From NCBI GenBank assembly GCA_020629315.1, contig JAHDDO010000004.1:110383-174382 (forward strand): a stretch of 64,000 nucleotides of DNA. The letters run 5' to 3'. The translations under genes and the position numbers were made by a program. Each line of letters opens with the position of its first letter. The first letter of the stretch is position 1. This DNA is from Saprospiraceae bacterium. GTDB lineage: Bacteria > Bacteroidota > Bacteroidia > Chitinophagales > Saprospiraceae. The notes beneath the pieces were generated by a model. The model searched no databases, was not told the origin of the DNA, and was given only the letters and a program-made list of their open reading frames with translations. Shown here piece by piece: positions 8,966 to 44,688 of this stretch.

Positions 8966-9727
8966 ATGCGTCATATCTTTTTCCTATTTGCTTCCTTTCT
9001 TTTTATCACTTCATGTGGTGATTTTTCAAACGTAAGTAAAAAAACACTCTCACCCACTAGCCAATCATTCAGTGTCAAGGGTGAAATGATTCAGCGAAAG
9101 GCTCCTATGACTAAAAGTAAAGTGGCAGATTGGAACCTAGCGGCGAATACTGATAAAGACTTTTTTCATGCGGTCTTAGTTAGTTATGACAACAAAATGG
9201 TTGATGCTGATACCATTATCACAGATGGTGGCGGCTGGATATTTAAAAATATCGTTACAGAACCAACAATTACAGTTACCCCGATGTACAGTACCGCTTT
9301 GGAGGGTGCTGCTCAATATTCAATAGCGATTTTTGAAAATGAAATCGATAATGATAGCTCCGAAGTCTATTTTTCATTTGATGAAGAATGGAGTCCAAGA
9401 ATACGGATTGAACGACCTAACTCATATCCCGCTAATGAACGGTATGTTGCTAGAAACCTTGACCAAAATGTACCGTTTAAATTATACAAAAGTTCAATTG
9501 CAGTGAGTAGTCTAGAGTTTGAATCTAAAAATGTCTATCACGGCATCGTAGGTGGTTTTTCTAATGGCACGATGGAGGAATTTGCAGAGAAGTGCAATAA
9601 CTATTGGTTAGCTGGGTCATTCATAGGGATCTCAGACCGATTGGACCTTCCTTTAGATAGTGAAGAACTAGATGATTTACAAAAAAGAGAAAAAACGGAT
9701 AGCCATTATATTCCGGACAATAACTAG
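8966..9727 (+). CDS. Hypothetical lipoprotein (253 aa)
   Basis: Signal peptide with lipobox-like FITSCGD; no recognised domain. Confidence 0.75.
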   Translation: MRHIFFLFASFLFITSCGDFSNVSKKTLSPTSQSFSVKGEMIQRKAPMTKSKVADWNLAANTDKDFFHAVLVSYDNKMVDADTIITDGGGWIFKNIVTEPTITVTPMYSTALEGAAQYSIAIFENEIDNDSSEVYFSFDEEWSPRIRIERPNSYPANERYVARNLDQNVPFKLYKSSIAVSSLEFESKNVYHGIVGGFSNGTMEEFAEKCNNYWLAGSFIGISDRLDLPLDSEELDDLQKREKTDSHYIPDNN

Positions 9728-10083
9728 CCTCCAGAAAACTTGACATCTTTGGCTCCTTTTTTCAATAGAATCTCTTTTATTCTATCGCGTTTATCGCCTT
9801 GAATAATGATCTCTCCATCTTTGGTACTTCCGCCAACGCCACAAGCTTTCTTCAATTCTTTTCCTAAGTCTTTTAAGGCATCATCAGGCAACTCAATGCC
9901 TCTTATTATACTTGCGGTTTTCCCTCCACGATGTTTCTTTTCTAGATGGATTCGGATGGTAAATACACTTAAATCTGAGCTTTCATCAGTCTCATTATCT
10001 TCAAATTGGGGGACATTCTCAGGGCTCCCCAACGCCTGGAAGTCCTCCCAACTCAAAGATTTAAATTTCTGTTCTTTAGACAT
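9724..10083 (-). CDS. SUI1/eIF1-like translation initiation factor (YciH family)
   Basis: RGGKTASIIRGIELPDDALKDLGKELKKACGVGGSTKDGEIIIQGDKRDRIKEILLKKGAKDVKFSGG. Confidence 0.93.
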   Translation of the reverse strand: MSKEQKFKSLSWEDFQALGSPENVPQFEDNETDESSDLSVFTIRIHLEKKHRGGKTASIIRGIELPDDALKDLGKELKKACGVGGSTKDGEIIIQGDKRDRIKEILLKKGAKDVKFSGG

Positions 10084-10131: not shown

Positions 10132-12969
10132 TTATCTGGCGATCACCATTTTGGCGATCTCCTTTTTATTCTGTGCAAACATCTCAATGAAGTACATGCC
10201 ACTTGGAAAATCTACCTCGATTTGGTAGTCATTTACCTGAGGATGTATTTCAATGACCTTTCCGTTAGCATCAAATATTCTCATATTTGATATTACTTCT
10301 GGGTTTGAAAATTCTATAATATTATCGTGGATAAAGTATTGAATCTCTTCATCTACTAATTCACTTTCTTCGTCGTCTTCTACAAAGTCATCACATTCTT
10401 GACCGAAATAAATATGCATAGAGCAGCCCGGATCATCAGAATCAATAACAAGCAAATCGTGAGCATCTGCAGACCCTTGGAATGGACCTAGATCAATACC
10501 GCCACCATAATCATGCGTAGAGTGATACTCGTTGTCAAGATATAAGTGGTAGCTATCACCTAATCCGCTATGATTTACCTCGATGCTAATAAAGTATTCG
10601 TCTTCTTCGCAAGGGAAATATTCAATGGAAACACTCTCCATAGAACATTCTGGAAGGTCACCACAGCAAACGGGTTCTTCTAACTCTATATATGTAAAAC
10701 AAGAATCTTGGCATTCTTCTATTAAGACAAATTCGTATAAGGTTTCGCAATCGCCCTCCAGGTTTTCGATGTAGATCAGATCCTGAGGATACTCGAAGAA
10801 GCCATAAAACTGACCATTGCCAATAACGTTAAATCCTGGACAATCTGATTCTGGTGCCTCTAGGTAAAGAATGACGTCAAATAGGCCATTTTCATTGCAT
10901 TCGGTTACTTCATATTCCAAAATATCCAACAAGCATCCGTTTTCATCTTCACAGCAGATAGGCTCATCAAAATAAATGTCATTAGAACACACTTCTTGTG
11001 CATTATCAACTAAAACAAATTCGTAAAGGGTTATACAATCGGCTTCTAAAGGACCGATAATGACTCGATAATCTTCTGTGTAATCAAATTCACCATAGTT
11101 TACACCATTACCAAAAACACTGAAGGTATTGGACGGAGGTGCTTGATTAGACGGATAGAATATTTCTGCATAGAATACGCCATCTTCGCATTCGATAGCA
11201 TTCAAGAATAGTTGATCAAATATGCATAGACCTTCTACTTCACATGGTACTTCAATATCATAATAGAAGAAACAATCATACTCATTTAATTGATCACAAA
11301 TCAACAAAGTGAAGACTGGACCATTTACATAGTTTAGGTCAATGGCAATGGTTGAAATAGGGAGATCAGCATAGGCATAGGTACCAATAAGGACTAAATC
11401 AGGACTTACAATATTGAATGAATCAGACGCATTATCATGATATAAGTTAACACCTTCTAATAGCAAGTGACCATCAGTACAGACCACATTTTCGATTTGT
11501 AGCTCTCCAATATTACAAGGGTCGCTATCACAGCAGATCGGTTCTCCTAAGTTGAATTCTATGGAACAACATGGATCCTGAGCATCAACTAAAGTAAAAT
11601 CGTAAATGGTTTCACAATCTCCCGCAATTCCGCCAATCTCGATGAATCCTTGCTGGCTGTAGGAAAATGGGCCTCGGCTATCATTATTAAATAATACAAA
11701 GAACTGACCGTCATTGCTTGTATTACCATACCAGATATTGACCTGAAATTCTCCACCTGGATTACAATCGTGTACTTCATATTCTACGTATTGCCAGTCA
11801 CAAGGTCCGCTTTGTTCCCAACACGGGTTTTCTAAAACTAATGAAGTTGTACAATAGCTTTCAAATGAAAGGCTAATAGTAAATTGTGGAGATCCGCTAA
11901 TTATACTTTGTGGTATAGCTATGTTTGTAGGAGTTTCTCTGGGAATATCAAAGAAGTATCCATCATTTACCCAGAAATTAATTGTTTCTACCTCTTCCAA
12001 GTATATTTCTCCAACAAGATCAATAATGTATAGGTATTCTTCATCACACTCTATATGACTGAAGCTTGGTGTAGGAATATAACATTCGGTCGAGTCACAG
12101 CATAAAAGATCAATGTTTAATTCTGTTTCACAACCTAAGACCTCATCATATAGCAATACATCTAAAGACTGATTGCAATTTACGCTTAATGGTCCTACTT
12201 CGTAACTTGTGCTTCCGTAAGGGAACGTAAATAACATATCCCCAACAATAACATTGAAATTTCCATCACCAGACAATGACTCTTCTGATTCAAGAACTAG
12301 ATAAGGTTCAAATTCGTCAGTGCAGAGGTAAGGTAGTGTCTCTAATTCGTCCAGCACACATTCACCACAGAACATGGCTGGTACTGGAATATAATCACAA
12401 CACAGTTCATCACTTTCTAAGCAAACAGTAATACTGTATGGTTCACAAATTTCTAGTTCGTATATGGCTAATGGAAAGTCGTCATATTCTACGGTTTCAT
12501 AAAATAAATCATTAACCTTTACTATCAAAGAGCCTACATTTTGTGGATAATTACCATCAATATAAGCCGTATATAGATCGCCAGACCATTCAACGGTATC
12601 TAATAAGACCCCGCCAAATAAAGGGCAATCAAAACCTGGACAGCAAGCAACGGAAGGTTCCGTATATTCAATAGTGCATGTATCGGTTGGGGTCCAGTAG
12701 CTTAAGGTAAAGGTATACTGAGTTTCACAATCGCCAATAAGGCCATCCATCAAATATTGATCTTCTCCAAAATCGTATTCGCCTAGGAAAATATCATTGG
12801 CAGAAATATTGAAATAACCGCCATGATCTTCAGGTGTATCCAGAAAGACGTTAAAAAAGATATTATCATTTTGGCATTCGAGCCATTCTACGTGTGTGAT
12901 CTCAACGTCACATTGACCAAGTAAGAAAAAGGGGAGGCAAGTAATAATGGAAACTAGGAACTTTTTCAT
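10132..12969 (-). CDS. Secreted Cys-rich repeat protein with T9SS-type C-terminal sorting domain (945 aa, 9 modules)
   Basis: Signal peptide; nine ~90-97 aa modules starting with C and mostly ending in CC; C-terminal VISNMRIFDANGKVIEIHPQVNDYQIEVDFPSGMYFIEMFAQNKKEIAKMVIAR is typical of a T9SS CTD. Confidence 0.88.
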   Translation of the reverse strand: MKKFLVSIITCLPFFLLGQCDVEITHVEWLECQNDNIFFNVFLDTPEDHGGYFNISANDIFLGEYDFGEDQYLMDGLIGDCETQYTFTLSYWTPTDTCTIEYTEPSVACCPGFDCPLFGGVLLDTVEWSGDLYTAYIDGNYPQNVGSLIVKVNDLFYETVEYDDFPLAIYELEICEPYSITVCLESDELCCDYIPVPAMFCGECVLDELETLPYLCTDEFEPYLVLESEESLSGDGNFNVIVGDMLFTFPYGSTSYEVGPLSVNCNQSLDVLLYDEVLGCETELNIDLLCCDSTECYIPTPSFSHIECDEEYLYIIDLVGEIYLEEVETINFWVNDGYFFDIPRETPTNIAIPQSIISGSPQFTISLSFESYCTTSLVLENPCWEQSGPCDWQYVEYEVHDCNPGGEFQVNIWYGNTSNDGQFFVLFNNDSRGPFSYSQQGFIEIGGIAGDCETIYDFTLVDAQDPCCSIEFNLGEPICCDSDPCNIGELQIENVVCTDGHLLLEGVNLYHDNASDSFNIVSPDLVLIGTYAYADLPISTIAIDLNYVNGPVFTLLICDQLNEYDCFFYYDIEVPCEVEGLCIFDQLFLNAIECEDGVFYAEIFYPSNQAPPSNTFSVFGNGVNYGEFDYTEDYRVIIGPLEADCITLYEFVLVDNAQEVCSNDIYFDEPICCEDENGCLLDILEYEVTECNENGLFDVILYLEAPESDCPGFNVIGNGQFYGFFEYPQDLIYIENLEGDCETLYEFVLIEECQDSCFTYIELEEPVCCGDLPECSMESVSIEYFPCEEDEYFISIEVNHSGLGDSYHLYLDNEYHSTHDYGGGIDLGPFQGSADAHDLLVIDSDDPGCSMHIYFGQECDDFVEDDEESELVDEEIQYFIHDNIIEFSNPEVISNMRIFDANGKVIEIHPQVNDYQIEVDFPSGMYFIEMFAQNKKEIAKMVIAR
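10360..12912 (-). repeat. Nine protein-level modules of the 945-aa protein
   Basis: Manual module segmentation (CDVEI..., CPLFG..., CVLDE..., CYIPT..., CDWQY..., CNIGE..., CIFDQ..., CLLDI..., CSMES...). Confidence 0.8.
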
Positions 12970-13106: not shown

Positions 13107-16100
13107 CTAATATTTGAAGATCTTTTTACTGTATAGAACACCATCCATTTCATAGACCATGATGTATATGCTGGCATCAAAGTCAGCAATACTCATGCGT
13201 CCAGAGCCTTGGAGCGAATATTTTCCAACTTCTCGTCCAGTATTCTGATAAATCATTAATTCAAAACCATTAGGTGCTGCACTATATATTATTTCGTTGT
13301 GACCATATTGAATGCGGAAGCCTGATTCACAGCAAATGGGACCAAAGTCGCCTGCAATGAAGCAATCTTCGTTTATTTCATCAACTATATAAAGGTCATA
13401 TACCGTTTCACAGTCCCCTTCGAAAGGACCGACTGTATAATAGTCTTCTCCATATTGGAAGTTTTCAATGAACTCGTCATTGACAAATACATTGAATGAT
13501 CCTGCGTCTGGGTCAATCGCATCAAATTCAAAATCGATGTAAAAATCGCCTTCTTCATCACATTCTGAAGTTTCTATGATTAACCCATCAAAAAGACACT
13601 CGGAGTCTTCCTCTTGGCAATCCGGTGTTTCAAATTCAATAGAAGTACAGCAATCTGGATTGTCATTGATACAAACCTCGACGACTATCGTTCCTTGGGC
13701 AATTATATCTTCGACTAGAATAGGTAATTGATCTAATTCGAAGAAGTCATAAAAGTCTTCGTTAATAAAGACATCGAAGAATTCATCAGTGGCATTTTCA
13801 TAATTGAAGCTTAGGTAGAAACTGAATAGGTCCTCATTTAGACAAAGAATATCGAAAACTTCTAGGTCCCATAGTTCACACTCTTCCTCCTCTTCTTCAC
13901 AACATACTGGACCAAATTCGTCGGCCACGAAGCAGTTTTCATTTAGCTCATCTACAATGAAAAGGTCATATATAGTTTCGCAATCCCCATCGAATGGACC
14001 GACCGTATAGAATAGCTCGCCATACTGGAAATTATCTATAAACTCATCATTGACAAAAACATTGAATGACCCTGCGTCTGGATCAGATACATCGAATTCA
14101 AAATCCACTAGAAACCCACCTACTTCATCGCATTCATGAGCTTCGATAAATAACTCATCCATAATGCATTCGCCATCTTCTTCTTCACAATTAGGTGCTT
14201 CAAATTCAGTAACAGTACAACAATCTGGATTATCATTAATACAGACTTCAACTACCACCACGCCTTCTGCGAGTACTTCCTCAACTAAAACAGGTAGCTC
14301 TTCAAGCCCATAGAAACCAAAGAATGACCCATTTACAAAAAGATCAAAGAATTCATTATCCGGATTTTCGTAGGCGAAGTTTATGTAAAAGCTGAAGTAC
14401 GATTCATCATTGCAATCAATATCGAAGACCTCCAGGCCAAACACTTCACATTCTGGTTCTTCATCATCACAACAAACTGGTCCAAATTCGTCAGCGATAA
14501 AACAATTTTCATTGATCTCATCTACTAGGTAAAGATCATATATTGTTTCACAATCTCCATCAAATGGCCCCACGGTATAGTAGGGTTCCCCATATTGGAA
14601 ATTAGCTATAAAGGCATCATTTACATATACATTGAATGAACCCGCATCAGGATCTGTCACATCAAATTCAAAATCAATTAAAAAGTTACCCTCTTCATCA
14701 CATTCATATGTCTCAATAAACAACCCTTCCATTACGCATTCATCATCCTCATCTTCACAATTAGGTGCTTCAAATTCTATAGTTGTACAACAATCCGGAT
14801 TATCATTGATACACACATCTACAATAACAAGTCCTTCAGCAGGAATTTCTTCTACAAGAATAGGTAGTTCTTCAAGCGGGTAAAAATCATAAAAGTCTCC
14901 ATTAATGAAGAGATCAAAGAATTCATTGCCAGGATCTTCATACGAAAAGTTGATATAGAAAGTAAAGTAATCATCGCTTACACAGATAAAATCAAAGGCC
15001 TCTAGATCGAATACTTCACAAAACTCCTCTTCCTCATCACAGCAAACAGGACCAAATTCATTGGCAATAAAACAGTCATCATTCACTTCATCAACCAAGA
15101 AAAGATCATATACTGTTTCGCAATCGCCTTCAAATGGACCTACCGTATAAAAGGGTTCACCATATTGAAAGTTACTAATGAATTCTTCATTCACGAAGAC
15201 ATTAAATGAGCCTGCATCCGGTTCTATAACTTCAAAGGCAAAATCAATTAAGAAGCCACCTTCTTCGTTGCACTCATATGTTTCAATGAATAAACCATTC
15301 ATTTGACATTCGCTATCTTCACTGCAATCCGGACCTTCAAATTCTATCGTAGAACAGCAATCTTCATTGTCATTTATACAAACATCAATGACCACAATTT
15401 CTTCAATAGGCACTTCTTCGACAAAGAGCGGTAGATCTTCTAAAGAGTAAAACCCATAGAAATCTCCATTTACATATAAATCAAAGAATTCATTATCAGG
15501 ATTGACATAATTGAAATTGATATACAAACTGAAATAATCCTCATTCAAACAAATGAAATCAAAAGCTTCCAAATCAAAGACTTCACAAGATTCTTCTTCA
15601 TTACAACAGACAGGACCAAATTCGTTAGCGATGAAGCAGTCTTCATTTACTTCATCTACGAGATATAGATCATAGATTGTCTCACAATCTCCATCGAATG
15701 GACCTACGGTATAAAATGTTTCTCCATATTGGAAATTGGCAATAAAGGCATCATTTACAAAAACATTAAATGAGCCTGCATCAGGGTCTGTCACATCAAA
15801 TTCAAAATCAATTAAGAAACCACCATCTTCGTCACAGTCATAGGTTTCAATGAACAGACCCGTCATTTGGCATTGTTCTTCTTCTTCGCTACAATTAGGT
15901 CCTTCAAATTCAAAGGCGGTACAACAATCAGGATTATCATTGATACAAACCTCTACCACTATAATATCCTCAAGCAAGGCTTCTTCTACTTGAGTCGGCA
16001 AATCCTCTAATGAATACAGCCCATAAAATTCATCATTGACAAAAAGGTCAAACCACTCACTCTCTGGGTTTTCATAGCCAAAGTTTATATAAAAGCTAAG

Positions 16101-17612
16101 ATAATTCTCATCTAAGCAAACTATATCAAATACTTCTAGGTCAAATACTTCACAGATGACATCCTGACTACAACAGACTGGTTCCAAATCCAATTCGTCA
16201 ACACATGCTGGATTTTCGGTGTCCATTATTTTTAACCAAGGCCCTTCTTCACAGTTTTCTTCAAAAGGTCCAACCGTATAAAAGTCCATCCCATACGCAA
16301 AGGTTCCTATAGTATCCTCATTGAATATGAAGTAGAATGAATCAGCCGTACTTCCTTCTACGAAGAAAGAAAAGTCGATCATGAACATATCCTCTTCATT
16401 ACAGCCATATGCTTCGGCTACAAGATCCAAAAGGGTACAGTCATTAGATTCGCAGCACGGAACTTCATAGATGTAGCTATCTGAACAATCCTCGTTTAGT
16501 TCATCTTGTACGTATAATTCAAGCTCCCCAGCGCAGTTCCCTTCGAAGGGACCAATTGAATAAGGGCCTTCTTCTTCATAGGGAATATTCTCGATAAACG
16601 CATCATTAAGATATACATTGAAGGATCCTGCCTCCGGATTTTCGATTTCAAAATCGAATACCACTTGATAATTACCATCGGCATCGCATTCACTTATTTC
16701 TGCAAATAATTCTGATATAATACATTCTGTGGCCTCACATTCTTGTGGAGGAATAATCATAGTAGCACAACAATCTGGAACATCGTTAATGCAAACCTCC
16801 ACCTCATTTTCAAGAAACGCAGACAAGGGACCAATTTCAAGAGGCAATTGATTTAACAAATAATAATCAAGATAAACGCCATTAACCCATATCTCAAAAT
16901 ACTCATTGCCTGGATCTATGACATCGAAATCAATATTTACAAGATATTCATTATCACTGAGGCAAGTTACATCCTGATAAGCAAGGTTTTGTATTTCACA
17001 CATGGCTACTTCGCAGCATATAGCTTCTTCAAGAAATGTAAACGTGGAACAATCAGGATTTTCGTTATCGGTTAAGACAAATTCATATATAGTTTCACAA
17101 TCCCCTTGCAATCCTTCTATTAACACAAAGGGATCGTCATATGAATACTCTGTTCCATATGTAATTCCATTTCCTTGAACCGTAAATGTGGCAGCATCAG
17201 GATTTAAGATCTCCCAAGTTAAGTATACATCAAATGTACCATCATCATTACAGAAGGTCGGATCAGCAAAGACTTGGGTCCAGTAGCAGTCACAGCAAGG
17301 TTGTAGTATTTCAGCTTCTATATTACAAGAAGGATCGGCATCATCCACCAAACTAATGGCTTCGTAATAGGATGGACAAACGCCTTCGAAAGGACCTATT
17401 GTATAGAACGTTTCACCATACTCGAAAGTCTCCACATAATCTTGGCCAAAATAAACGGTAAAGGTTCCAGTAGCATCATTTTCAAATTCGAAATCGATTG
17501 TGAATGTATTTGATTCAGAACAGTCAGAAAACTCGGTAACCAAATTGGAGAATTCACATTGTGAGTGGAGCAAAGAGGGGAGTAGTAAGAAGAAGGATAA
17601 AAGTTTTTTCAT
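13107..17612 (-). CDS. Secreted acidic Cys-rich repeat protein with T9SS-like C-terminal domain (1501 aa, 15 modules)
   Basis: Signal peptide MKKLLSFFLLLPSLLHSQ; 15 modules of ~90-96 aa; C-terminal GFELMIYQNTGREVGKYSLQGSGRMSIADFDASIYIMVYEMDGVLYSKKIFKY. Confidence 0.9.
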   Translation of the reverse strand: MKKLLSFFLLLPSLLHSQCEFSNLVTEFSDCSESNTFTIDFEFENDATGTFTVYFGQDYVETFEYGETFYTIGPFEGVCPSYYEAISLVDDADPSCNIEAEILQPCCDCYWTQVFADPTFCNDDGTFDVYLTWEILNPDAATFTVQGNGITYGTEYSYDDPFVLIEGLQGDCETIYEFVLTDNENPDCSTFTFLEEAICCEVAMCEIQNLAYQDVTCLSDNEYLVNIDFDVIDPGNEYFEIWVNGVYLDYYLLNQLPLEIGPLSAFLENEVEVCINDVPDCCATMIIPPQECEATECIISELFAEISECDADGNYQVVFDFEIENPEAGSFNVYLNDAFIENIPYEEEGPYSIGPFEGNCAGELELYVQDELNEDCSDSYIYEVPCCESNDCTLLDLVAEAYGCNEEDMFMIDFSFFVEGSTADSFYFIFNEDTIGTFAYGMDFYTVGPFEENCEEGPWLKIMDTENPACVDELDLEPVCCSQDVICEVFDLEVFDIVCLDENYLSFYINFGYENPESEWFDLFVNDEFYGLYSLEDLPTQVEEALLEDIIVVEVCINDNPDCCTAFEFEGPNCSEEEEQCQMTGLFIETYDCDEDGGFLIDFEFDVTDPDAGSFNVFVNDAFIANFQYGETFYTVGPFDGDCETIYDLYLVDEVNEDCFIANEFGPVCCNEEESCEVFDLEAFDFICLNEDYFSLYINFNYVNPDNEFFDLYVNGDFYGFYSLEDLPLFVEEVPIEEIVVIDVCINDNEDCCSTIEFEGPDCSEDSECQMNGLFIETYECNEEGGFLIDFAFEVIEPDAGSFNVFVNEEFISNFQYGEPFYTVGPFEGDCETVYDLFLVDEVNDDCFIANEFGPVCCDEEEEFCEVFDLEAFDFICVSDDYFTFYINFSYEDPGNEFFDLFINGDFYDFYPLEELPILVEEIPAEGLVIVDVCINDNPDCCTTIEFEAPNCEDEDDECVMEGLFIETYECDEEGNFLIDFEFDVTDPDAGSFNVYVNDAFIANFQYGEPYYTVGPFDGDCETIYDLYLVDEINENCFIADEFGPVCCDDEEPECEVFGLEVFDIDCNDESYFSFYINFAYENPDNEFFDLFVNGSFFGFYGLEELPVLVEEVLAEGVVVVEVCINDNPDCCTVTEFEAPNCEEEDGECIMDELFIEAHECDEVGGFLVDFEFDVSDPDAGSFNVFVNDEFIDNFQYGELFYTVGPFDGDCETIYDLFIVDELNENCFVADEFGPVCCEEEEEECELWDLEVFDILCLNEDLFSFYLSFNYENATDEFFDVFINEDFYDFFELDQLPILVEDIIAQGTIVVEVCINDNPDCCTSIEFETPDCQEEDSECLFDGLIIETSECDEEGDFYIDFEFDAIDPDAGSFNVFVNDEFIENFQYGEDYYTVGPFEGDCETVYDLYIVDEINEDCFIAGDFGPICCESGFRIQYGHNEIIYSAAPNGFELMIYQNTGREVGKYSLQGSGRMSIADFDASIYIMVYEMDGVLYSKKIFKY
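13323..16154 (-). repeat. Five tandem copies of a two-module (B-A) unit, ~189 aa each
   Basis: Modules 6-15 alternate CEVFDLEVFD...CINDNPDCC...PNC (B) and CxMxGLFIETYECDEEG...GSFNVFVNDxFI...GPVCC (A). Confidence 0.9.
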
Positions 17613-18070
17613 GTGTACATTTTCAATTTGATAGAGAGTGTTAGATTAAAAAACGCTGCTTTAGGATAATACTATCACTTTAAATATACGGATAGTCTAT
17701 GCATGTTATCCATGATGTATTATTAGTTCATATTATTCATAATATACTTATTATCAATTTATAATACATTTGAATATATCTTAATATATGTACCTGTATG
17801 TTGTCCCTATTTTCTTCAATTATGATTCGATACATGAATGCTCTATACCGTAAACCATAGCTACTAGAAAAAAAGTAATTATTTTTTTTGTTTGCGATTT
17901 TGGGACTATACAGTGATATACATTTAGATACACTTTAGCATTTTTTATAATCTGAATTCATATTAGAAAGACTTATAATTTGATGGTCAGTTTGGAATAA
18001 ATCTTGGTCTTTAGACATCGATAATACTTTTTTAGGCTTGTCGTCAGCTTACACATTGGCGGCTCGTCTC

Positions 18071-21000
18071 ATGAGTAGAAACGAATTTTACAAAAACCGA
18101 AAATCGATGAGAAGACCATTACTTACACTATGTAAACGGTTAACCAAGATTCAGATGAGCAGATTTACTCAGATCTGCATTGTGTTATTTTTCATTTCGG
18201 GAACTTCATTGCTTAACGCTCAAGCTACCTTAACAGCTGATTTCAATACAATTTGCGACCTTGATGGTTGTGATTGTGTATATGAGATCACTATTTGTTT
18301 TGATGACGACGACCCAGTATATAATGGTGCGTACGAGTTTGAGATCCCTAGTGTGATTATTCCTAGTACATCCGGCTTGTTTGCCGATCCGTGCTTTGCA
18401 GCTGGGGAATCCTTTTTCCTAGTTAGTGTAAGTGCTGATCCTTTAGACCCTGATGTATATTGTATTACGGGTAACATGCACGCTATGACGGCTGGTACTG
18501 TTGAAATTAACGAGGTCCGTGATACAGATGACAATGTTATTTTCCCAGGACTTACGGAGACTTTTATGGCTCCAGATTGTCCAAGTTATCAAATTATGGG
18601 AGATAATGATATTTGTCAAAGCGAACTTACTGGTCAAGTGTATACCATTGATGGTGTCCTTGCTGCTGGTAATACTGCTGGCTGGAGTGTTTCTGGCGGT
18701 GGAACTATTGTAGGTGCCACTGATGGAAATTCAGTTACAGTTGATTGGACAGCTGCTACACCCGGCACCTATCAATTATCATTTGAGGGTAAAGATGCCT
18801 ATGATAATTGTGATATCACTCATAGTATTGATGTCGAAACGTATATTATTGAAGACCGTTTAGAAATTCAAGGTTCTACCTTAGTGGATTGTGGTTCGAG
18901 ACATTGCTATATATTGGCAGGGATCTCTTTACCTAATGATCCAATGACCTCTATAACTTGGTCTACAACAAATCCTGCGTTGAATGTAACAGATCCTGTT
19001 ATTAATGCGGGTGGTCTTTCGAAAGCAGAAATCTGCGTCGATTTTTTGGCTAATCCTGTGCTAATGCCAATGGAAACATTGACAGCTATGGGAACAACCT
19101 TTGATGGTTGTGATTTTACTGAAACGATCGATATAGTGCTCCAAGCTGATGGAACAGTGTATGATGTGATTTCTTTGGATACAGAATCTCCGGTATGTTA
19201 TGGACAAAGTGTAGAGCTTTGTTTTGATGCAGATCAGGATGATACATTCCCTAGAGATGCCGATGCAACTACACTTATGTGGGGTACCAATGGTGGGACT
19301 TTGACTCCTGTAGCTCCGGCTGCTGGAGAAACTTGTGTTGACTTGGTTGTTCCAGCTGGTGTGGCTGCGCCTAACTCAGTTACTGTTACATTAACAGGTA
19401 ATTACGATGGTGCTGCTTCTGCTTGTGGTTTTGGTGCAGAACTAACGATCGATTTTGTAGACTTAAGTGATGACTTAACATTAGAAGGTGAAGTAAACCC
19501 TACGTGTGAGTCTACACAACGATACGAATTAACAGGTATTGATGCAGCAGATTTAGTATTGCCACTTACATGGAGCTTCCCTGCAGGCATTAGTGCACCT
19601 ACTATGATAAATGCTACCACTTATGATGTAGTCTGGGATGGTGGTTTTGCTGGCAACTTCGTAGAAGTGTCAGGTGTAACAATGGATGGTTGCGAATTTA
19701 GCTTACGAAGTGACATATTCGTTGAAGCGCTTTCAGATGCACCGATTGAAGGTGATACATATGTTTGTGCAGGTGAGACATCTTGTTACACGATTGATAT
19801 TGCGGACCAATTGCCTGCTGGCGCAAACTTAAGTTGGCGTTTATTAGAGCAAGGGGGTGGGGCAAACAATGTGGATACTGACACAGGTGATCCTACTTAC
19901 CCTACAAATACGGCTTTAGTAAGTATTACTGAAATGGGTACTTCTCAAGTAACGGTTTGTTTAGATTTTGATGAGACATTAACAAGTTCTTTTGATCTTG
20001 AGGTATTTGACAATTCAGTACCTGCTATAGCTTGTTTTGGGCCAAATGCTATATTAAGAGATATTCAAGTTGTGGCTGATCCAGTATCAGAGCAAATGGC
20101 TTGTAATAATTCTGTGATCATTTCTTTAAATGGTTTGTGCGAATTAGCTATTTCCCCTGATATGGTACTAGAAGGAAATTATGCTGGCGGTTATGATCAA
20201 TTTACATTGATCATTAAAGATGCTGAAACTGGTGTAATGGTTCCAGATGGAGTACTAGATGCTTCATTTATAGGGACAACCTTAGAAGTAATGGTACGTC
20301 AGGATTGTACACCTAACAGCTGTTGGGGATATATTACCGTAGAAGATAAATCGGTTCCTACACCTCCATGCCCAGAGGATATCAATAATGAAGCTATGTT
20401 AGCTTCTGGCGACTTTACTGTGACAACAGGCGCTGGTGATGGAACTGTGGATATGGCTTCTTTCGATGCCGATGGGTCTATAGTATTAACCAGTTCGAAC
20501 AATGGTACTGAAGACGACGCTCAGGTTTGTTTTATGGTGCCTATGGATGGTAGAGTAAGTTTTGATTGGGATTATGTTTCTGATAATTCTTTCGCTTGTT
20601 GGGATCCATTTGGTTATTCAATTGATGGTGTTGTAACGCAAATATCTGAAGGAAATATTGATTGTGATCCATTTGAAAATGGTGATATTGAGCAAATTGG
20701 AGCAGAGTGTATTGATGTGCTCGCAGGGACTGAATTCTGTCTAATTGCTTCTACTTTTGATGGTATTTTTGGAGCATCAACGACTACTGTTACTAATTTT
20801 CAATTAACAGATTGGATAGACTGTTCAGACCTTAATGATGTGGATCCTTCAGCGCTAGGTTTTGATGATGACGTTGTTATCACAGAAGTTAGTGATTCGG
20901 AATGGACATTAGAGAACTTTGATAATTGTACAGATGCAACATTAACATACATTGATGACGTAGATGATGATGCGCCATTCTGTGACCCAGGTGATCCAGG

Positions 21001-24000
21001 TTCTATTGTTCAAAGAACATGGACTGTTACAGATGCATTCGGTAATTCGGCTTCTTGTACGCAAGAAATATATGTAAAGAGACCATCTGCACTTAACCTA
21101 GTATGGCCTCCAAATTGGGATAGTGCTATCGCCGGCTCTAATGCATCATTAGATGCATGTGGTGATTGGCCAGAAGATGATAATGGAAATCCTCATCCTG
21201 ACTTTACAGGATATCCTGATGGATTATTCTGCATGAATCTTAGCCTAATTGGGTATACAGATTATAAGGAAATTCCTAAGTGTGGAGAAGGTTCTCCAGC
21301 TAGAAAGATATTAAGAAAATGGACAGTTTGGGACCAATGTACTGCCGAAGACTATGAGCATACGCAGATCATTACATTGGCTGATGTTGATCCTCCAGTG
21401 ACGAATGTGATTAGTGATAGATTTGACTATCCTGCTGATCCATACAATTGTAGTGCACAAGTGGATATTGATCCGACTCCAGGAAATGGAGGAATTGGTG
21501 AGCTTCAAGTTTTTGGAGAATGTTCTGAGGTGACTATTAGAGCTTTTTACCTACCACCAGTTGTGGGTACTGCTTTACCTGCACTTGATGTAGACTTTAT
21601 TGAAGTGCCAAGAAACGCTGATGGAACCTTTACGATTCCTGCCGTTGATGGACAGGCAGTTTGGGTACGATATATTATTGAAGATGCTTGTTTCAATGGC
21701 AGTACTATAGCAGGAATGCAATTAGATGATCAAGGTAATCCTGATCCATCTGATCCGAGAGTGGCAGCCTTTGAGATATTCTTCGAAGATGTAACGCCAC
21801 CTACACCTGTATGTGACTTATATACTGTAGTTACATTAGATGATGAAGGTTGTGCTTATGCCCAAGCTTCAAGTATTGATGACAAATCTTGGGATGCATG
21901 TGGTATAGATACTATGTTAATCCGAAGAATGGATACAAACTGTGGAGATTACTCTGATTGGGGTAACTTAGTTAAATTCTGTTGTACAGATTTAGGTGCT
22001 CCAGTGATGGTTGCTCTAGGTGTGTGGGATGAAGAAGGTAACTTCAATGAATGTATGGCTGAGGTTAATGTTAAGGATCCAGATGGTCCTAATTTCAGTT
22101 GTCCAGCAGATCGAGATGTTGATTGTGGTTCATATAACCTAGACAATCTATCAAACTTCGGTTCTCCATCAGGTGATGATAATTGTAACTATGATAGTGA
22201 GCTAGTTAGTGAAGTGGCAGACTTAGATGAATGTGACTTAGGTACTATCACAAGAACATGGAATATATTAAGTAATGGTGAGGCTGTGAGCCAATGTGTT
22301 CAGGTCATTACTGTTGAAAATCAAACGCCATTTAGTGAAAATGCAAACATTAATTGGCCAGGTGATGAAGATGTTTCATGTACTGAAGGTACAAGCCCAG
22401 AAGATACAGGAGTACCAACATATAAAGGTAACTTAGGTTGTTCTGATCCATTCAGTTCATATGATGACCTAGAGTTCCAATATGTTGATGACGCTTGTTT
22501 GAAGATATTGCGAACATGGACTGTGGTAGATTGGTGTAACAATGGTGCTTCATTTACGCACACGCAGGTCATTAAAGTTTTAGACGGAAATGGTCCTAGT
22601 ATCACAAACTGTCAGGATGAAACATATGAAGATGTAGAATTAGATGCTAGTTGTCATTTACAGATAGATGACCTAACGGCTGGTGCTGATGATAACTGTA
22701 CGGATCATTTACTATGGACTGTAAGTATTGATATAGATAATGATGGATCTTATGAAGTTGTAGATGCACCTACTAATGATGCATCAGGACTTTATCCGGT
22801 GGGTACACACTCCATTAAATTTTCAGTTCTAGATGATTGTGAGAATTCTTCTTCTTGTGAGAAGTTAATCACCATTGTTGATGATAAGGAGCCTACACCG
22901 TACTGTTTAGAGGAATTGGTTGTTGTGATCAATCCAGAATCAGAGTGTGCTGAAGTTTGGGCTAGTGATTTTGACAGAGGAAGTTTTGACGGTTGTGACT
23001 TGAATGCACCTGTAACTATGGCTTTCTCTCCAAATCCATCTGATAGATCTATGGATGTATGCTGTGGAGAACTTGAAAATGGTGTAGTTGATACATTCAG
23101 TGTTCAAGTATATGCTATCGATGCTGAAGGAAACTCTGAGTTTTGTACAGCAAGTTTAATCGTTCAAGATAATTCTAACGTTTGCGAAGACGCAGAAGTT
23201 AATCTATCAAGAATTGCAGGTGAGATTTACAATGAGCAAGATGTAGATCTTGAAAATGTAGAAGTTCATATAGAAGCTACATTACCAGAATTCCCTTACT
23301 CAATGATTACAAACGATGGTTCATATGCCTTTGAGCAATTGTTGAATCAGGAAGACTACATGGTTTATCCTAAGAAAGATGATAACTATCTAAATGGTGT
23401 CTCGACACTGGATATTGTTATTATCCAAAGACACATTTTGGGTCTTGAAGACTTGGATTCTCCGTATAGAGTTATAGCAGCAGATGCAGATAATTCAGAA
23501 ACAATAACTGCATTTGACTTAGTAGAGCTTAGAAAACTGGTATTAGGCATTTATGAAGAACTGCCATCTAATGAGTCTTGGAGATTCGTTAGAGAGGATT
23601 TTGCCTTCACAAATCCTGCACAGCCATGGCCATTTGATGAGGAGATTTCAATTAGTCAATTATCACAAGATGAAAATCAAAATGATTTCATCGCAGTGAA
23701 AATAGGTGATGTGAATTTCTCTGCTATCATGGATGTCGATGGAGAAGAAGCAGATACAAGATCGGCAGGTACTATACATCTAGATATAGAAGATGCTAGC
23801 TATACTGCTGGAGAAAAGATTTATATAGCTATGAATGTAGCGGAGGCAACGGACATGATTGGATTCCAATCAACAGTCCAATTCGATGCTTCAAGTTTAC
23901 GATTCAGAAGCGCAAGTTCAGACGTGATAAATATCATGAATGCAAACATTAATCGACTTCGATCAGAAGAAGGATTAATCAGCTTAAGTTGGAATGATAG

Positions 24001-24445
24001 TCAAAATATCAGTTTCGCAGAAGGCGATGCATTGATTACTCTAGAATTTGAAACAATAGGCACCGGAAACACATTTGAATCCATTCAATTTTCTGATGCA
24101 TTGCTTTCCACGGAAGCATATGTAGAAGAGAATGGCCACATTGACATCCTACATATGGATCTTAATGAAGGTAACACTGGATCTAGTTTCGCACTTTACC
24201 AAAACAAGCCTAACCCGTTTAACAATAATACAATCATCGGTTTCAACCTTGAAATGGATGAGCTAGTAACATTGAGGGTTATGGATGTTAATGGTAAGCT
24301 TGTTCATAAGGAAAACGCTCATTATAAGAGAGGATATAATGAGATCCTATTGAACACAGAAACAATAAATGGCTCGGGTGTACTCTATTATCAGATTGAT
24401 ACCAAAACTAATAGTGCGATCAGAAAAATGATCTTAATTAAATAA
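18071..24445 (+). CDS. Large secreted T9SS protein with HYR/PKD-like repeats, dockerin-like and cohesin-like domains and C-terminal sorting domain
   Basis: Signal peptide near MSRFTQICIVLFFISGTSLLNAQ. NGVSTLDIVIIQRHILG...AADADNSETITAFDLVELRKLVLG is dockerin-like; IHLDIEDASYTAGEKIYIAMNVAEATDMIGFQSTVQFDASSLRF is cohesin-like; C-terminal FALYQNKPNPFNNNTIIGFNLEMDELVTLRVMDVNGKLV is a T9SS CTD. Exact start uncertain (TTG 18038 or ATG 18071 or later). Confidence 0.88.
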   Translation: MSRNEFYKNRKSMRRPLLTLCKRLTKIQMSRFTQICIVLFFISGTSLLNAQATLTADFNTICDLDGCDCVYEITICFDDDDPVYNGAYEFEIPSVIIPSTSGLFADPCFAAGESFFLVSVSADPLDPDVYCITGNMHAMTAGTVEINEVRDTDDNVIFPGLTETFMAPDCPSYQIMGDNDICQSELTGQVYTIDGVLAAGNTAGWSVSGGGTIVGATDGNSVTVDWTAATPGTYQLSFEGKDAYDNCDITHSIDVETYIIEDRLEIQGSTLVDCGSRHCYILAGISLPNDPMTSITWSTTNPALNVTDPVINAGGLSKAEICVDFLANPVLMPMETLTAMGTTFDGCDFTETIDIVLQADGTVYDVISLDTESPVCYGQSVELCFDADQDDTFPRDADATTLMWGTNGGTLTPVAPAAGETCVDLVVPAGVAAPNSVTVTLTGNYDGAASACGFGAELTIDFVDLSDDLTLEGEVNPTCESTQRYELTGIDAADLVLPLTWSFPAGISAPTMINATTYDVVWDGGFAGNFVEVSGVTMDGCEFSLRSDIFVEALSDAPIEGDTYVCAGETSCYTIDIADQLPAGANLSWRLLEQGGGANNVDTDTGDPTYPTNTALVSITEMGTSQVTVCLDFDETLTSSFDLEVFDNSVPAIACFGPNAILRDIQVVADPVSEQMACNNSVIISLNGLCELAISPDMVLEGNYAGGYDQFTLIIKDAETGVMVPDGVLDASFIGTTLEVMVRQDCTPNSCWGYITVEDKSVPTPPCPEDINNEAMLASGDFTVTTGAGDGTVDMASFDADGSIVLTSSNNGTEDDAQVCFMVPMDGRVSFDWDYVSDNSFACWDPFGYSIDGVVTQISEGNIDCDPFENGDIEQIGAECIDVLAGTEFCLIASTFDGIFGASTTTVTNFQLTDWIDCSDLNDVDPSALGFDDDVVITEVSDSEWTLENFDNCTDATLTYIDDVDDDAPFCDPGDPGSIVQRTWTVTDAFGNSASCTQEIYVKRPSALNLVWPPNWDSAIAGSNASLDACGDWPEDDNGNPHPDFTGYPDGLFCMNLSLIGYTDYKEIPKCGEGSPARKILRKWTVWDQCTAEDYEHTQIITLADVDPPVTNVISDRFDYPADPYNCSAQVDIDPTPGNGGIGELQVFGECSEVTIRAFYLPPVVGTALPALDVDFIEVPRNADGTFTIPAVDGQAVWVRYIIEDACFNGSTIAGMQLDDQGNPDPSDPRVAAFEIFFEDVTPPTPVCDLYTVVTLDDEGCAYAQASSIDDKSWDACGIDTMLIRRMDTNCGDYSDWGNLVKFCCTDLGAPVMVALGVWDEEGNFNECMAEVNVKDPDGPNFSCPADRDVDCGSYNLDNLSNFGSPSGDDNCNYDSELVSEVADLDECDLGTITRTWNILSNGEAVSQCVQVITVENQTPFSENANINWPGDEDVSCTEGTSPEDTGVPTYKGNLGCSDPFSSYDDLEFQYVDDACLKILRTWTVVDWCNNGASFTHTQVIKVLDGNGPSITNCQDETYEDVELDASCHLQIDDLTAGADDNCTDHLLWTVSIDIDNDGSYEVVDAPTNDASGLYPVGTHSIKFSVLDDCENSSSCEKLITIVDDKEPTPYCLEELVVVINPESECAEVWASDFDRGSFDGCDLNAPVTMAFSPNPSDRSMDVCCGELENGVVDTFSVQVYAIDAEGNSEFCTASLIVQDNSNVCEDAEVNLSRIAGEIYNEQDVDLENVEVHIEATLPEFPYSMITNDGSYAFEQLLNQEDYMVYPKKDDNYLNGVSTLDIVIIQRHILGLEDLDSPYRVIAADADNSETITAFDLVELRKLVLGIYEELPSNESWRFVREDFAFTNPAQPWPFDEEISISQLSQDENQNDFIAVKIGDVNFSAIMDVDGEEADTRSAGTIHLDIEDASYTAGEKIYIAMNVAEATDMIGFQSTVQFDASSLRFRSASSDVINIMNANINRLRSEEGLISLSWNDSQNISFAEGDALITLEFETIGTGNTFESIQFSDALLSTEAYVEENGHIDILHMDLNEGNTGSSFALYQNKPNPFNNNTIIGFNLEMDELVTLRVMDVNGKLVHKENAHYKRGYNEILLNTETINGSGVLYYQIDTKTNSAIRKMILIK
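23392..24150 (+). other. Dockerin-like + cohesin-like tandem in the upstream giant protein
   Basis: Sequence pattern of paired dockerin helices followed by a beta-rich cohesin-like segment. Confidence 0.6.
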
Positions 24446-41268: not shown

Positions 41269-44200
41269 TTATTTTATTACAATTTTTTCAGTGATTGTCC
41301 TTTGATCAGTATGCACCTTAATTAGATATATACCGGCGGGTATATTTTCTATGTTAAGATTATAAGTATCTAATTGATTCTGATTTCCTAATATGTGATT
41401 TTGAATCAAAGATCCTGACAAACTAGTAATCTGTATTCCAGTGATAGCTTGATCTTTTGATGCGATCGTTAATACCTCAATAGCAGGATTTGGATAGATC
41501 TGTACCGCATCTAAACGAGCTTCTTCTACATTAGAAGGTGTAATTTCTTGATAAGGAGGTAGAATTATGTCATCAATCCAAACGGCATCCTCACCCGAAC
41601 TTATAATTTCATCCTTATAGTATTCCCAAACTAATGTGTGTTCTCCTACAGTTAGATCATAACTGACTTCAGACCAGTCTTTGTTGCCGCTCCATCCATC
41701 CATGCGTTCACCATCAATAGAAAAGTATAAGAAGTCATAAGATCCTTCTGAATCAGTTCTAAAAGAGAAAAAACAAGGTCCAGCTTCTAAAACATCTATA
41801 GTCAATGTGTGGTACGTTGATGCGTCATGACCGATGGTTCCGGATTGTAAACAGTATTCACCTTTATATGGGTTTTGATCAGTCCTAAACCATGGAATAC
41901 TTTCGTCAAACGTGAATGGATGTCCAGTTTCGTCATTTTCAAAATCCTCAATGATTAAGTTAGCCCTAAACTCTTCAGCACCTGTTGCGTCATAAAATTC
42001 ATCACCGACTAAATATTGAAAATCTACAATTTGATTATACGGCATGGCAGCATCTACAAATACTTCATACGTAGTGATCATATTTCCATTATCACCCATG
42101 ATTTGAGCAATTGGACTATCTGGTGAACTAATATTTATTCCTGCACTTGAACTACTAAGTGTTCCAATGATATCTTGAATGTCACTACTGCCTACATTAT
42201 AATTCTCAACAGATATAAGCACTGTTTCATCAGCATCCATTCTTCCATTGCCGTTTCCGGTGGTTGCATCGTCAATCGTGATGGCCCCAACTTTTAATTC
42301 CGGCGCATTTAGTTTAATCTGCAAACTAGAATTCCATTCGTGTCCATCAGCCTCGATCTTTATACCAAAAGGAACTACATAACCATCTTCGACGCCTTCT
42401 GCTACTTGAATCTCAAAATTCTCCAATTGGGTGTGTAATTCATCAGCTATTATATTTCCATGCTGACTAGCATCTTGGGTAATGCTTACCTTATCATCTG
42501 ATGAACTAATAGTAAGCCTTACATTAGTAGCTGTTTCCACACCTACATTTTGAAGGTCAATGTCGAGGGCAAAACGTTCTGCATGATCTGCTAATCCATT
42601 GTTATTACCAGCTACATCATTTACTCTAGCTTCAGTAAGAATTACATAAGGTCCTTCTGCTGGAATTACGGAAATTGTACCTTGGTAAGGTATTGTATTA
42701 AAAGCAGTTGCAGTAACAATAATATCTTCTGGAGATAGTAGCCCTTCTCCTTTTATTTCAATAGTAGTCTGACCATTTTCTATATAGCCTGTACCCACAC
42801 TTTCACCTCTGTAATACAATCCTATCATTGCATCCTCTGTATTACTACTTACCGTAATACTACTTGTTCCAATAAACACGGATTCTATATGTGTTACCGT
42901 CAGTTGTTGTGGAAATGCAGTTCTGATTTCCATCGTAGGATCACCAAATAAGCACCACGTGTCCATCATATCTTCACCGCCTCCTTGGTATTGATCAATC
43001 ATATAACCGCCACCATGCACTAGTATTGAACCAAAGCTATGTCGGGTTTTGTAGGCGGCAGAACCTGCAATGATCCTATTCATTTCATCTTGTCCAGCCA
43101 TTGGAGGTGACCAACTTTGAAGGACTGAAGAAAATAGACCGCCGATACCTCCAGTAGGAGCACCCGTGGCTTCGTCTGTGGCTTTCATCCAGCGTTCTCC
43201 AAAACAATCTCCAGTACCATCTGATTCATCAAAATCACCCACGCAACACGCAACGGCGATACAGAATGGATAAGCACCTGTGTTTACCATAGCATCAATG
43301 GCCTGGCTATTCAAACCTCCGGTTACCAAAATACCATGTGAACCATGACCTACATAATTGTACAATGAAGTTCCTTGTCCCTCTATTACAGCTAGTAATT
43401 CACTAACCCCCGGCCATTCTGCATCATCGCTAGTATGACTGCCAGGCGTCGGTGATGAAGAAGATTGGTCTCCTTCATAAAACTCATACACCTCTTCATA
43501 GGTAAAATCAAGTAATAATTCCTTTATGATATTCATATGCTCAAAATCATACTCACCATTATCTCCAGGTCCCTCTTGCGAACCGGCCCCAATAGCTGTT
43601 GAAAACCATTGTGGTTTATCTGTATTGGGCGAAATTTCGTACTCCATTAATTTTTCAATAACTGGGGCTAATTCTTCCGCATTATGAGTGATCAGTCTTC
43701 CGATAAGTACTTCTGGGTAATGGTCATCTCCGGCTAAGTAGCCATAACAATTGTCACAATATCCATCTCCAAAACCTAAAAACAACTCTGAAGTAACTTG
43801 ATCCTCATCACCTACGATAATTACATAGGATATATATTTTTCAGCATACATGCTGGCTACATATTCTTGTACGGCAGTTAAGTCAGTTCCAAAATCATCT
43901 GTATTAGCTACAAATACCTCATGCCCTTTTTGTCTCTTCCAAGTAATATAAGGAGCCATGACTTCATCATATTCACTATTCATTAGCACTAATATGCCGC
44001 CATACTCATCCGTATACTCATATCTATTTTCAGTAGATTGAAAATTAATGAATCGTTCCTTAAATATATTTTCGAACGAAACATTTACAGGAGGAACAAC
44101 AGCAGGAGCTTTAAATCCTGCATCCGTATTCTTGCTAGCCTTGATTAGTAATCGAGTATGTACTCGGATACTTTCTGACGCTGGATTGTACTGCATAGGA

Positions 44201-44688
44201 AAGATCTTTACACTTTGACCCTTCACACTTCTGAATACATATGCCGCTTTCTCATGAATTAATTGCTTAGGGAAATACTGATCTTGATCATACACATCAC
44301 CAAAAGGATAGGCAATAGTCGATGGATCAGTATCACGTAGAATGTTCCCTTTACTAGGGGCAACTGGAGTTGAAGCCAAGTCTATATGTTCTGAACTAAG
44401 AACTTCGAATGTTAAAAGATCATCAAACTCAATAGCAAAGCTCGGGTTAATCGAAGGTAGATCGGGTTGCCCTAGGTTTAAGTTTCGAGCTGCACCCGAA
44501 AAACCAGGAATGAAATACTCACCTTCATCTGTACTCACTCTCTCAAAAGAGTAGTCATTCATTTGTACTTCAAACAAAATAGATGAGGCATCTTCAGATA
44601 ACACTTCAATAGTATAATCTGGAGAGTGGGCTAGTAATGAGCCAAAAACAAAACACAATAAAAAAGAATAAAGGAACCGTATTTTCAT
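41269..44688 (-). CDS. Gingipain-like C25 family cysteine peptidase with T9SS sorting domain (1139 aa)
   Basis: YVIIVGDEDQV, GDGYCDNCYGYLAGDDHYPEVLIGRL, LYNYVGHGSHG, FCIAVACCVGDFDE (catalytic His/Cys context); CTD VQIYPNPAIEVLTIASKDQ...ITEKIVIK. Confidence 0.93.
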   Translation of the reverse strand: MKIRFLYSFLLCFVFGSLLAHSPDYTIEVLSEDASSILFEVQMNDYSFERVSTDEGEYFIPGFSGAARNLNLGQPDLPSINPSFAIEFDDLLTFEVLSSEHIDLASTPVAPSKGNILRDTDPSTIAYPFGDVYDQDQYFPKQLIHEKAAYVFRSVKGQSVKIFPMQYNPASESIRVHTRLLIKASKNTDAGFKAPAVVPPVNVSFENIFKERFINFQSTENRYEYTDEYGGILVLMNSEYDEVMAPYITWKRQKGHEVFVANTDDFGTDLTAVQEYVASMYAEKYISYVIIVGDEDQVTSELFLGFGDGYCDNCYGYLAGDDHYPEVLIGRLITHNAEELAPVIEKLMEYEISPNTDKPQWFSTAIGAGSQEGPGDNGEYDFEHMNIIKELLLDFTYEEVYEFYEGDQSSSSPTPGSHTSDDAEWPGVSELLAVIEGQGTSLYNYVGHGSHGILVTGGLNSQAIDAMVNTGAYPFCIAVACCVGDFDESDGTGDCFGERWMKATDEATGAPTGGIGGLFSSVLQSWSPPMAGQDEMNRIIAGSAAYKTRHSFGSILVHGGGYMIDQYQGGGEDMMDTWCLFGDPTMEIRTAFPQQLTVTHIESVFIGTSSITVSSNTEDAMIGLYYRGESVGTGYIENGQTTIEIKGEGLLSPEDIIVTATAFNTIPYQGTISVIPAEGPYVILTEARVNDVAGNNNGLADHAERFALDIDLQNVGVETATNVRLTISSSDDKVSITQDASQHGNIIADELHTQLENFEIQVAEGVEDGYVVPFGIKIEADGHEWNSSLQIKLNAPELKVGAITIDDATTGNGNGRMDADETVLISVENYNVGSSDIQDIIGTLSSSSAGINISSPDSPIAQIMGDNGNMITTYEVFVDAAMPYNQIVDFQYLVGDEFYDATGAEEFRANLIIEDFENDETGHPFTFDESIPWFRTDQNPYKGEYCLQSGTIGHDASTYHTLTIDVLEAGPCFFSFRTDSEGSYDFLYFSIDGERMDGWSGNKDWSEVSYDLTVGEHTLVWEYYKDEIISSGEDAVWIDDIILPPYQEITPSNVEEARLDAVQIYPNPAIEVLTIASKDQAITGIQITSLSGSLIQNHILGNQNQLDTYNLNIENIPAGIYLIKVHTDQRTITEKIVIK

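Follow-up and report, generated by a model that had tools for sequence, protein, structure and literature searches.

The stretch of DNA analyzed here, referred to as the window, comprises 64,000 nucleotides of contig JAHDDO010000004.1 from a Saprospiraceae bacterium (assembly GCA_020629315.1). The gene under study encodes protein A, a large secreted-type protein whose array of cysteine-rich modules is almost devoid of lysine (Lys, K) and arginine (Arg, R). A shorter paralogue, protein B, lies beside it. Coordinates are those of the window, and aa stands for amino acids.

Protein A and its module array

13107..17612, minus strand: protein A, 1501 aa, consisting of a signal peptide, 15 six-Cys modules, and a C-terminal domain of type IX secretion system (T9SS) type
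17562..17612, minus strand: signal peptide, aa 1-17 of protein A, MKKLLSFFLLLPSLLHS, containing two of the seven Lys, with cleavage predicted before Gln18 by the Bacteroidetes Q-rule
13329..17558, minus strand: module array, aa 19-1428, 15 modules of 6 Cys each, delimited by Cys spacing, alignments, and AlphaFold2 modeling of three modules
Alpha modules (aa of protein A): 19-107, 109-200, 297-387, 392-481, 581-670, 769-858, 959-1048, 1149-1238, 1339-1428
Beta modules (aa of protein A): 205-292, 487-574, 676-763, 865-952, 1055-1142, 1245-1332
16230..16232, minus strand: Lys461 codon, the sole K/R codon of the module array, placed by the positions of K/R and an orthologue alignment
13317..16229, minus strand: longest K/R-free run, 971 aa (aa 462-1432)
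13110..13328, minus strand: C-terminal domain, aa 1429-1501 (73 aa), with normal K/R content (4 K, 3 R)
10132..12969, minus strand: protein B, 945 aa, a paralogue of protein A with nine modules of the same family

An earlier reading of the sequence alone had noted one Lys, near aa 461, and no Arg between the signal peptide and the C-terminal domain, and the residue count confirmed this. Lys is found at positions 2, 3, 461, 1464, 1496, 1497, and 1500 (7 total) and Arg at 1433, 1460, and 1472 (3 total), which leaves one K and no R in aa 4-1432. The mature part (aa 18-1428) contains 370 Asp and Glu (D+E), one K, and one His, for a net charge of approximately -369, and the computed pI of protein A is about 4.05. 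Protein B, the shorter sibling, had been said to share the bias with one Lys and three Arg; these are K151, R344, R432, and R635, located between its signal peptide and sorting domain, and its module array has a K+R content of 0.48%.

All 90 Cys of protein A fall within the 15 modules, exactly six per module, and probably form three disulfides in each. By Cys spacing the modules are of two types, alpha (C-12-C-50-C-16-C-10-CC) and beta (C-12-C-57-C-7-CC-10-C), which follow one another in the order a a b a a b a b a b a b a b a, joined by short, Asp/Glu-rich linkers. AlphaFold2, supplied with 49 aligned sequences, modeled an alpha-beta-alpha stretch as three beta-sandwiches of seven strands each (pLDDT 92.1). 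The modules are, in these confident models, beta-sandwiches resembling immunoglobulin (Ig) and fibronectin type III (FnIII) domains. The best neighbors of the three-module model found by Foldseek in the Protein Data Bank (PDB) were FnIII/Ig arrays, the giant calcium-binding adhesin SiiE, and the Aureispira grappling-hook protein GhpA, while a sequence search against solved structures found no chain similar to the modules. The Pfam model BetaGal_ABD2 (PF13364) scored 34.5 bits over the whole of protein A, above its cut-off of 23, though no single stretch passes, and we read this score as the sum of weak matches over the repeats. Automated annotation could, on this score, mislabel protein A as a beta-galactosidase domain protein.

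Proteins A and B and their orthologues begin with a charged start and a hydrophobic core followed by a Ser/Ala/Gly/Thr-Gln site, and most homologues have this S/A/G/T-Q pattern ahead of the first Cys. Under the Q-rule, cleavage before Gln leaves a pyroglutamate N-terminus (PMC5837995, PMC10653852). With the cleavage predicted before Gln18, therefore, mature protein A may have a single free amine. The tail of protein A scored 14.2 bits (E 0.032) against TIGR04183, the T9SS type A sorting domain, for which the curated NCBIfam cut-off is 23 bits. Protein B passes this cut-off with 28.3 bits, all 21 related tails match the model at E<=1, and the tail of protein A, modeled as a beta-sandwich, resembles in fold a 75-residue chain of the T9SS extended translocon 8gl8 (TMt 0.59). 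Protein A is therefore a predicted T9SS cargo, though the score of its own tail is below the cut-off.

Selection against lysine and arginine

Two same-genus orthologues were found to have zero K/R over module arrays of 1408 and 1035 aa. Between protein A and the first of them there are 659 residue differences in the modules, of which only one involves K/R, where about 70 would be expected; between the two orthologues there are 299 differences, none involving K/R, where about 32 would be expected. Lys461 is the single K/R difference of protein A from each orthologue. These expectations follow from about 10.7% of single-base amino-acid changes from protein A codons leading to K or R, a mutation-only figure that ignores ordinary amino-acid preferences. 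In the sorting domain of the same gene, 6 of 40 differences involve K/R. The claim that the loss reflects selection and not drift is thus strongly supported: purifying selection keeps K/R out of the modules, and of the modules only. The sorting domain is without the effect. Selection acts on the part retained in the mature protein.

A founder effect, in which one K/R-free module was duplicated too recently to regain these residues, has next to nothing to recommend it. Four alpha-beta units in protein A are 68-76% identical at the protein level, as recent duplication would have it, but saturation of their synonymous sites (pS 0.75-0.83) shows that the depletion is not due to young repeats. The orthologues, moreover, have not gained K/R at any of the hundreds of residues at which they differ. 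This explanation was refuted.

The source assembly measures 3.95 Mb in 86 contigs and has at least 150 T9SS tails. Composition was compared over an 864-kb sample of it containing 558 open reading frames (ORFs) of at least 120 aa. Protein A had the lowest K+R content of all 558, and its K/R-free run was much the longest, followed by runs of 556 and 553 aa. The bodies of 58 T9SS cargo proteins had a mean K+R of 4.38% and their tails 8.13%, and the two lowest bodies were those of protein A (0.07%) and protein B (0.48%). At the pooled K+R content of the sampled cargo bodies (3.95%), the chance of no more than one K/R in 1411 aa is about 3.5e-23. Other secreted proteins of the organism would have weakened the case had they been equally K/R-free; cargo is indeed depleted, with a few members at 0.5-1.3%, but none in the sample equals protein A. 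The depletion is real and is the extreme end of a family-wide and secretome-wide trend. Three other secreted-type proteins of the source genome (L082 659-2890, L098 1544-2755, and L080 6867-18120) have 0.9-1.5% K+R, one of them with the 553-aa run, and a search of the organism's own genome found this group to be unrelated to protein A.

Amino-acid economy, by which a secreted protein lost to the cell would avoid costly or nitrogen-rich residues, was also considered. Side-chain nitrogen per residue is low in protein A (0.089 vs 0.315 in all sampled ORFs), but synthesis cost per residue is not lowered (24.2 vs 24.1 in all ORFs and 23.1 in cargo), Phe and Cys make up 10.8% and 6.4%, and Asn is not reduced (6.5% vs 5.2% in all sampled ORFs). 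We consider this explanation very improbable and rejected it, since the cost and Asn figures largely refute it.

Homologues and the explanations of the depletion

The relatives in the collection searched were metagenome-assembled genomes of Saprospiraceae. Scanning their contigs with the single protein A sequence gave no match, whereas a scan with a module alignment gave 22 loci. A homologue was found in 184 of the 298 genomes of the family searched, the modules are also present in other families of the same order, and no homologue was found in plasmid records. The six-cysteine module family is without an adequate Pfam model and without a solved relative, yet it occurs in about 60% of the sampled genomes of the family. 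Across 24 homologous proteins the K+R content of the array ranges from 0 to 12.3%, and in 19 named homologues it averages 1.2% in the arrays and 8.5% in the tails. Whether homologues keep the depletion therefore has two answers: the same-genus orthologues do, and others have normal K/R. The depletion is accordingly lineage-specific, and the fold does not require it. The protein with 12.3% K+R (L119 6747-9905) offers a natural contrast to protein A on the same modules, and the other secreted proteins of its genome are also less acidic (median pI about 8). Acidic columns 9, 16, 33, 62, 73, and 84 stay conserved whether the K/R content of a member is high or low, and they are candidate structural or cation sites. 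A conserved loop rich in Asp lies at columns 73-78, and relatives have Lys or Arg at columns 4, 10, 36, 61, 70, and 81.

Across the 24 proteins, array K+R is negatively correlated with D+E (rho -0.68) and positively with His (rho 0.61). Across 18 genomes it follows the pI of the remaining proteins that have a signal peptide (rho 0.65) but not the pI of cytosolic proteins (rho 0.11) or GC content (rho 0.19), and GC content was rejected as a cause. None of these correlations is corrected for phylogeny. The links with D+E, His, and secretome pI point to selection for charge on exposed proteins and favor surface charge as its target.

The correlation with secretome pI could also mean that the outside medium, through salinity, pH, or cation level, acidifies all secreted proteins and that proteins A and B are only the tail of the distribution. 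Sampled T9SS cargo is depleted as a group (mean 4.4% K+R vs 11.3% in non-secreted proteins), and marine microbes have more acidic proteomes than their freshwater relatives, most strongly in secreted proteins (PMC6706942). Yet the cytosolic pI does not follow and is ordinary in the source genome (6.1), and zero K/R in 1408 aa is far below even the other cargo of that genome. We regard this explanation as improbable. High-salt adaptation, one of three explanations offered by the sequence-only reading, did not fit in its salt-in form: a salt-in halophile has an acidic cytoplasmic proteome, and ORFs lacking a signal peptide had 11.3% K+R, 12.4% D+E, and a median pI of 6.1. What is left of that proposal is a possible adaptation of secreted proteins to the medium outside the cell.

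A second proposal was resistance to Lys/Arg-specific proteases. K/R would have been lost because the fiber lives among extracellular peptidases of this specificity, including the organism's own T9SS-exported C25 enzymes, with pyroglutamate and disulfides completing the protection. The following features bear on it.

41269-44688: peptidase of the C25 (gingipain) family that carries a propeptide, a C25_C domain, and a T9SS tail; the source genome has three C25 genes in all
Arrays with a K/R skew in related genomes: L116 6003-8720; L117 6432-8552; L107 6786-9935; L114 6085-9177; L121 5962-11604

Besides the C25 gene in the same window and the N-terminal Gln that most homologues have directly behind the signal peptide, the residual basic residues of certain relatives are skewed, some avoiding Lys while keeping Arg and others the opposite, as residue-specific peptidases would produce. 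In L116 and L117, which are of one genus, the arrays retain 59 Lys and 2 Arg, and those of L107, L121, and L114 lean to Arg. By alignment column, L117 has 18 K vs 1 R (p 3e-5) and L107 has 6 K vs 15 R (p 0.001), in tests chosen after looking and on columns that are not fully independent. The skews run against the K:R ratio of the other sampled secreted proteins in the respective genomes (G271, G135, G195, G004). They are a lead for residue-specific avoidance, for example of Lys- or Arg-specific peptidases, and charge alone does not predict them. Gingipain dosage, on the other hand, fits poorly as a driver because C25 gene number and depletion do not go together: in G195, G090, and G164, whose modules have 0.7-1.6% K+R, there is a single C25 match each, while G271 has three matches and 5.7%. 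In addition, His is lost together with K/R as D/E rises, and compact, disulfide-rich beta-sandwiches usually resist proteases without losing every K/R. Protease evasion is, in our judgment, unlikely, with the K-vs-R skew as an argument in its favor.

Of the three proposals, a strongly anionic, probably cation-binding surface fiber fits best. Its anionic part is supported by the near absence of His and by the relation of K+R to D+E and His; we infer the fiber function and the cation binding. Protein A would be exported by the T9SS, cleaved at both ends with removal of the sorting domain, and held by disulfides. FnIII/Ig modules measure about 4 nm, and at this size the mature protein would form a rod of about 55-60 nm that carries 6-7 negative charges per nm, a linear charge density close to that of double-stranded DNA. 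Selection that strips every positive charge would keep the fiber extended and repelled by itself and by the anionic cell surface, and its dense carboxylate surface would hold water and divalent cations. Such a fiber may act as a stiff anionic stand-off stalk, an adhesin, or a matrix fiber. We regard this reading as about evenly poised between right and wrong.

Several observations weigh against it. The same modules are found in members with 6-12% K+R, so the family can function without a polyanionic surface, and selection on charge alone does not predict that what remains in some relatives should be only K or only R. The correlations rest on only 18-24 genomes or proteins, the cation site is putative, and the sorting domain of protein A falls below its curated cut-off.

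A broader and rather doubtful idea is that a Saprospiraceae lineage has evolved surface fibers that as a rule bar positive side chains, and nearly all free amines too if the N-terminal Gln cyclizes. These would be protein analogues of acidic polysaccharides, polyanionic rods with essentially no amines that withstand Lys/Arg-directed proteases as well as amine-directed chemistry and bind divalent cations. A search of the literature on K/R-free secreted proteins and on K/R-poor or acidic T9SS cargo found nothing relevant.

Protein A provides a clear example from nature of a large, folded protein whose surface admits no positive charge. The cleavable sorting domain serves as an internal control, and the homologues form a graded series from 0 to 12% K+R on the same fold. 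Why secreted proteins lose Lys and Arg becomes directly testable, because charge, protease specificity, and medium predict different outcomes. Such proteins also yield almost no tryptic peptides and would therefore be missed by standard proteomics.

Neighboring genes and comparison with known systems

18038..24445, plus strand: T9SS cargo, 2135 aa, transcribed divergently from the protein A gene
9724-10083: SUI1/eIF1-type translation factor adjoining gene B

A homologue of the divergent cargo gene adjoins an A-like gene head to head in at least seven related loci (L104, L105, L107, L108, L111, L112, L122). The giant cargo in the window has a K/R-rich extension (MSRNEFYKNRKSMRRPLLTLCKRL...) ahead of the hydrophobic signal core, making an extended signal peptide, and this extension is conserved in the divergent neighbor of relatives L104, L105, and L112. 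The position of the translation factor gene is kept in two same-genus relatives (L104, L105).

The giant Ca2+-binding Ig-like adhesins, namely SiiE and the RTX extenders of MpIBP, MhLap, and AhLap, share with protein A long tandem arrays of acidic beta-sandwiches on the cell surface, where protein A is placed by prediction, and SiiE is among the best Foldseek neighbors of its modules. RTX adhesin extenders, which serve as stiff stalks, are built of beta-sandwich repeats whose linkers hold Ca2+, and a consistent excess of negative residues is seen in predicted extenders (PMC7493085). These adhesins are type I secretion substrates, whereas the tail of protein A is of T9SS type and no type I (RTX) secretion signal was found in it; protein A could therefore resemble an RTX adhesin in the way it works but does not belong to that class. 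Its modules also differ in having six cysteines each and no sequence similarity to solved chains.

GhpA (PDB 9flw, 9flv, 9fls) is likewise a large multi-domain beta-sandwich surface protein, and Aureispira belongs to the same bacterial family as the source organism. The similarity is one of generic fold only (TM 0.13-0.20 with the three-module model), with no sequence match and no evidence of hook assembly. FnIII and Ig arrays have seven-stranded beta-sandwich modules in tandem as well, but no sequence relation to them is detectable, and the Cys pattern and composition differ.

In overall plan protein A resembles T9SS type A cargo (TIGR04183 / PF18962), with its Q-rule signal peptide, large modular body, and C-terminal Ig-like sorting domain. 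Protein B passes the family cut-off and the tail of protein A, itself below it, is homologous to tails that match TIGR04183. In its body K/R is much scarcer than in the rest of the cargo sampled from the genome. Protein A would be a modular T9SS surface protein of a known kind, extreme in its near-total lack of Lys and Arg.

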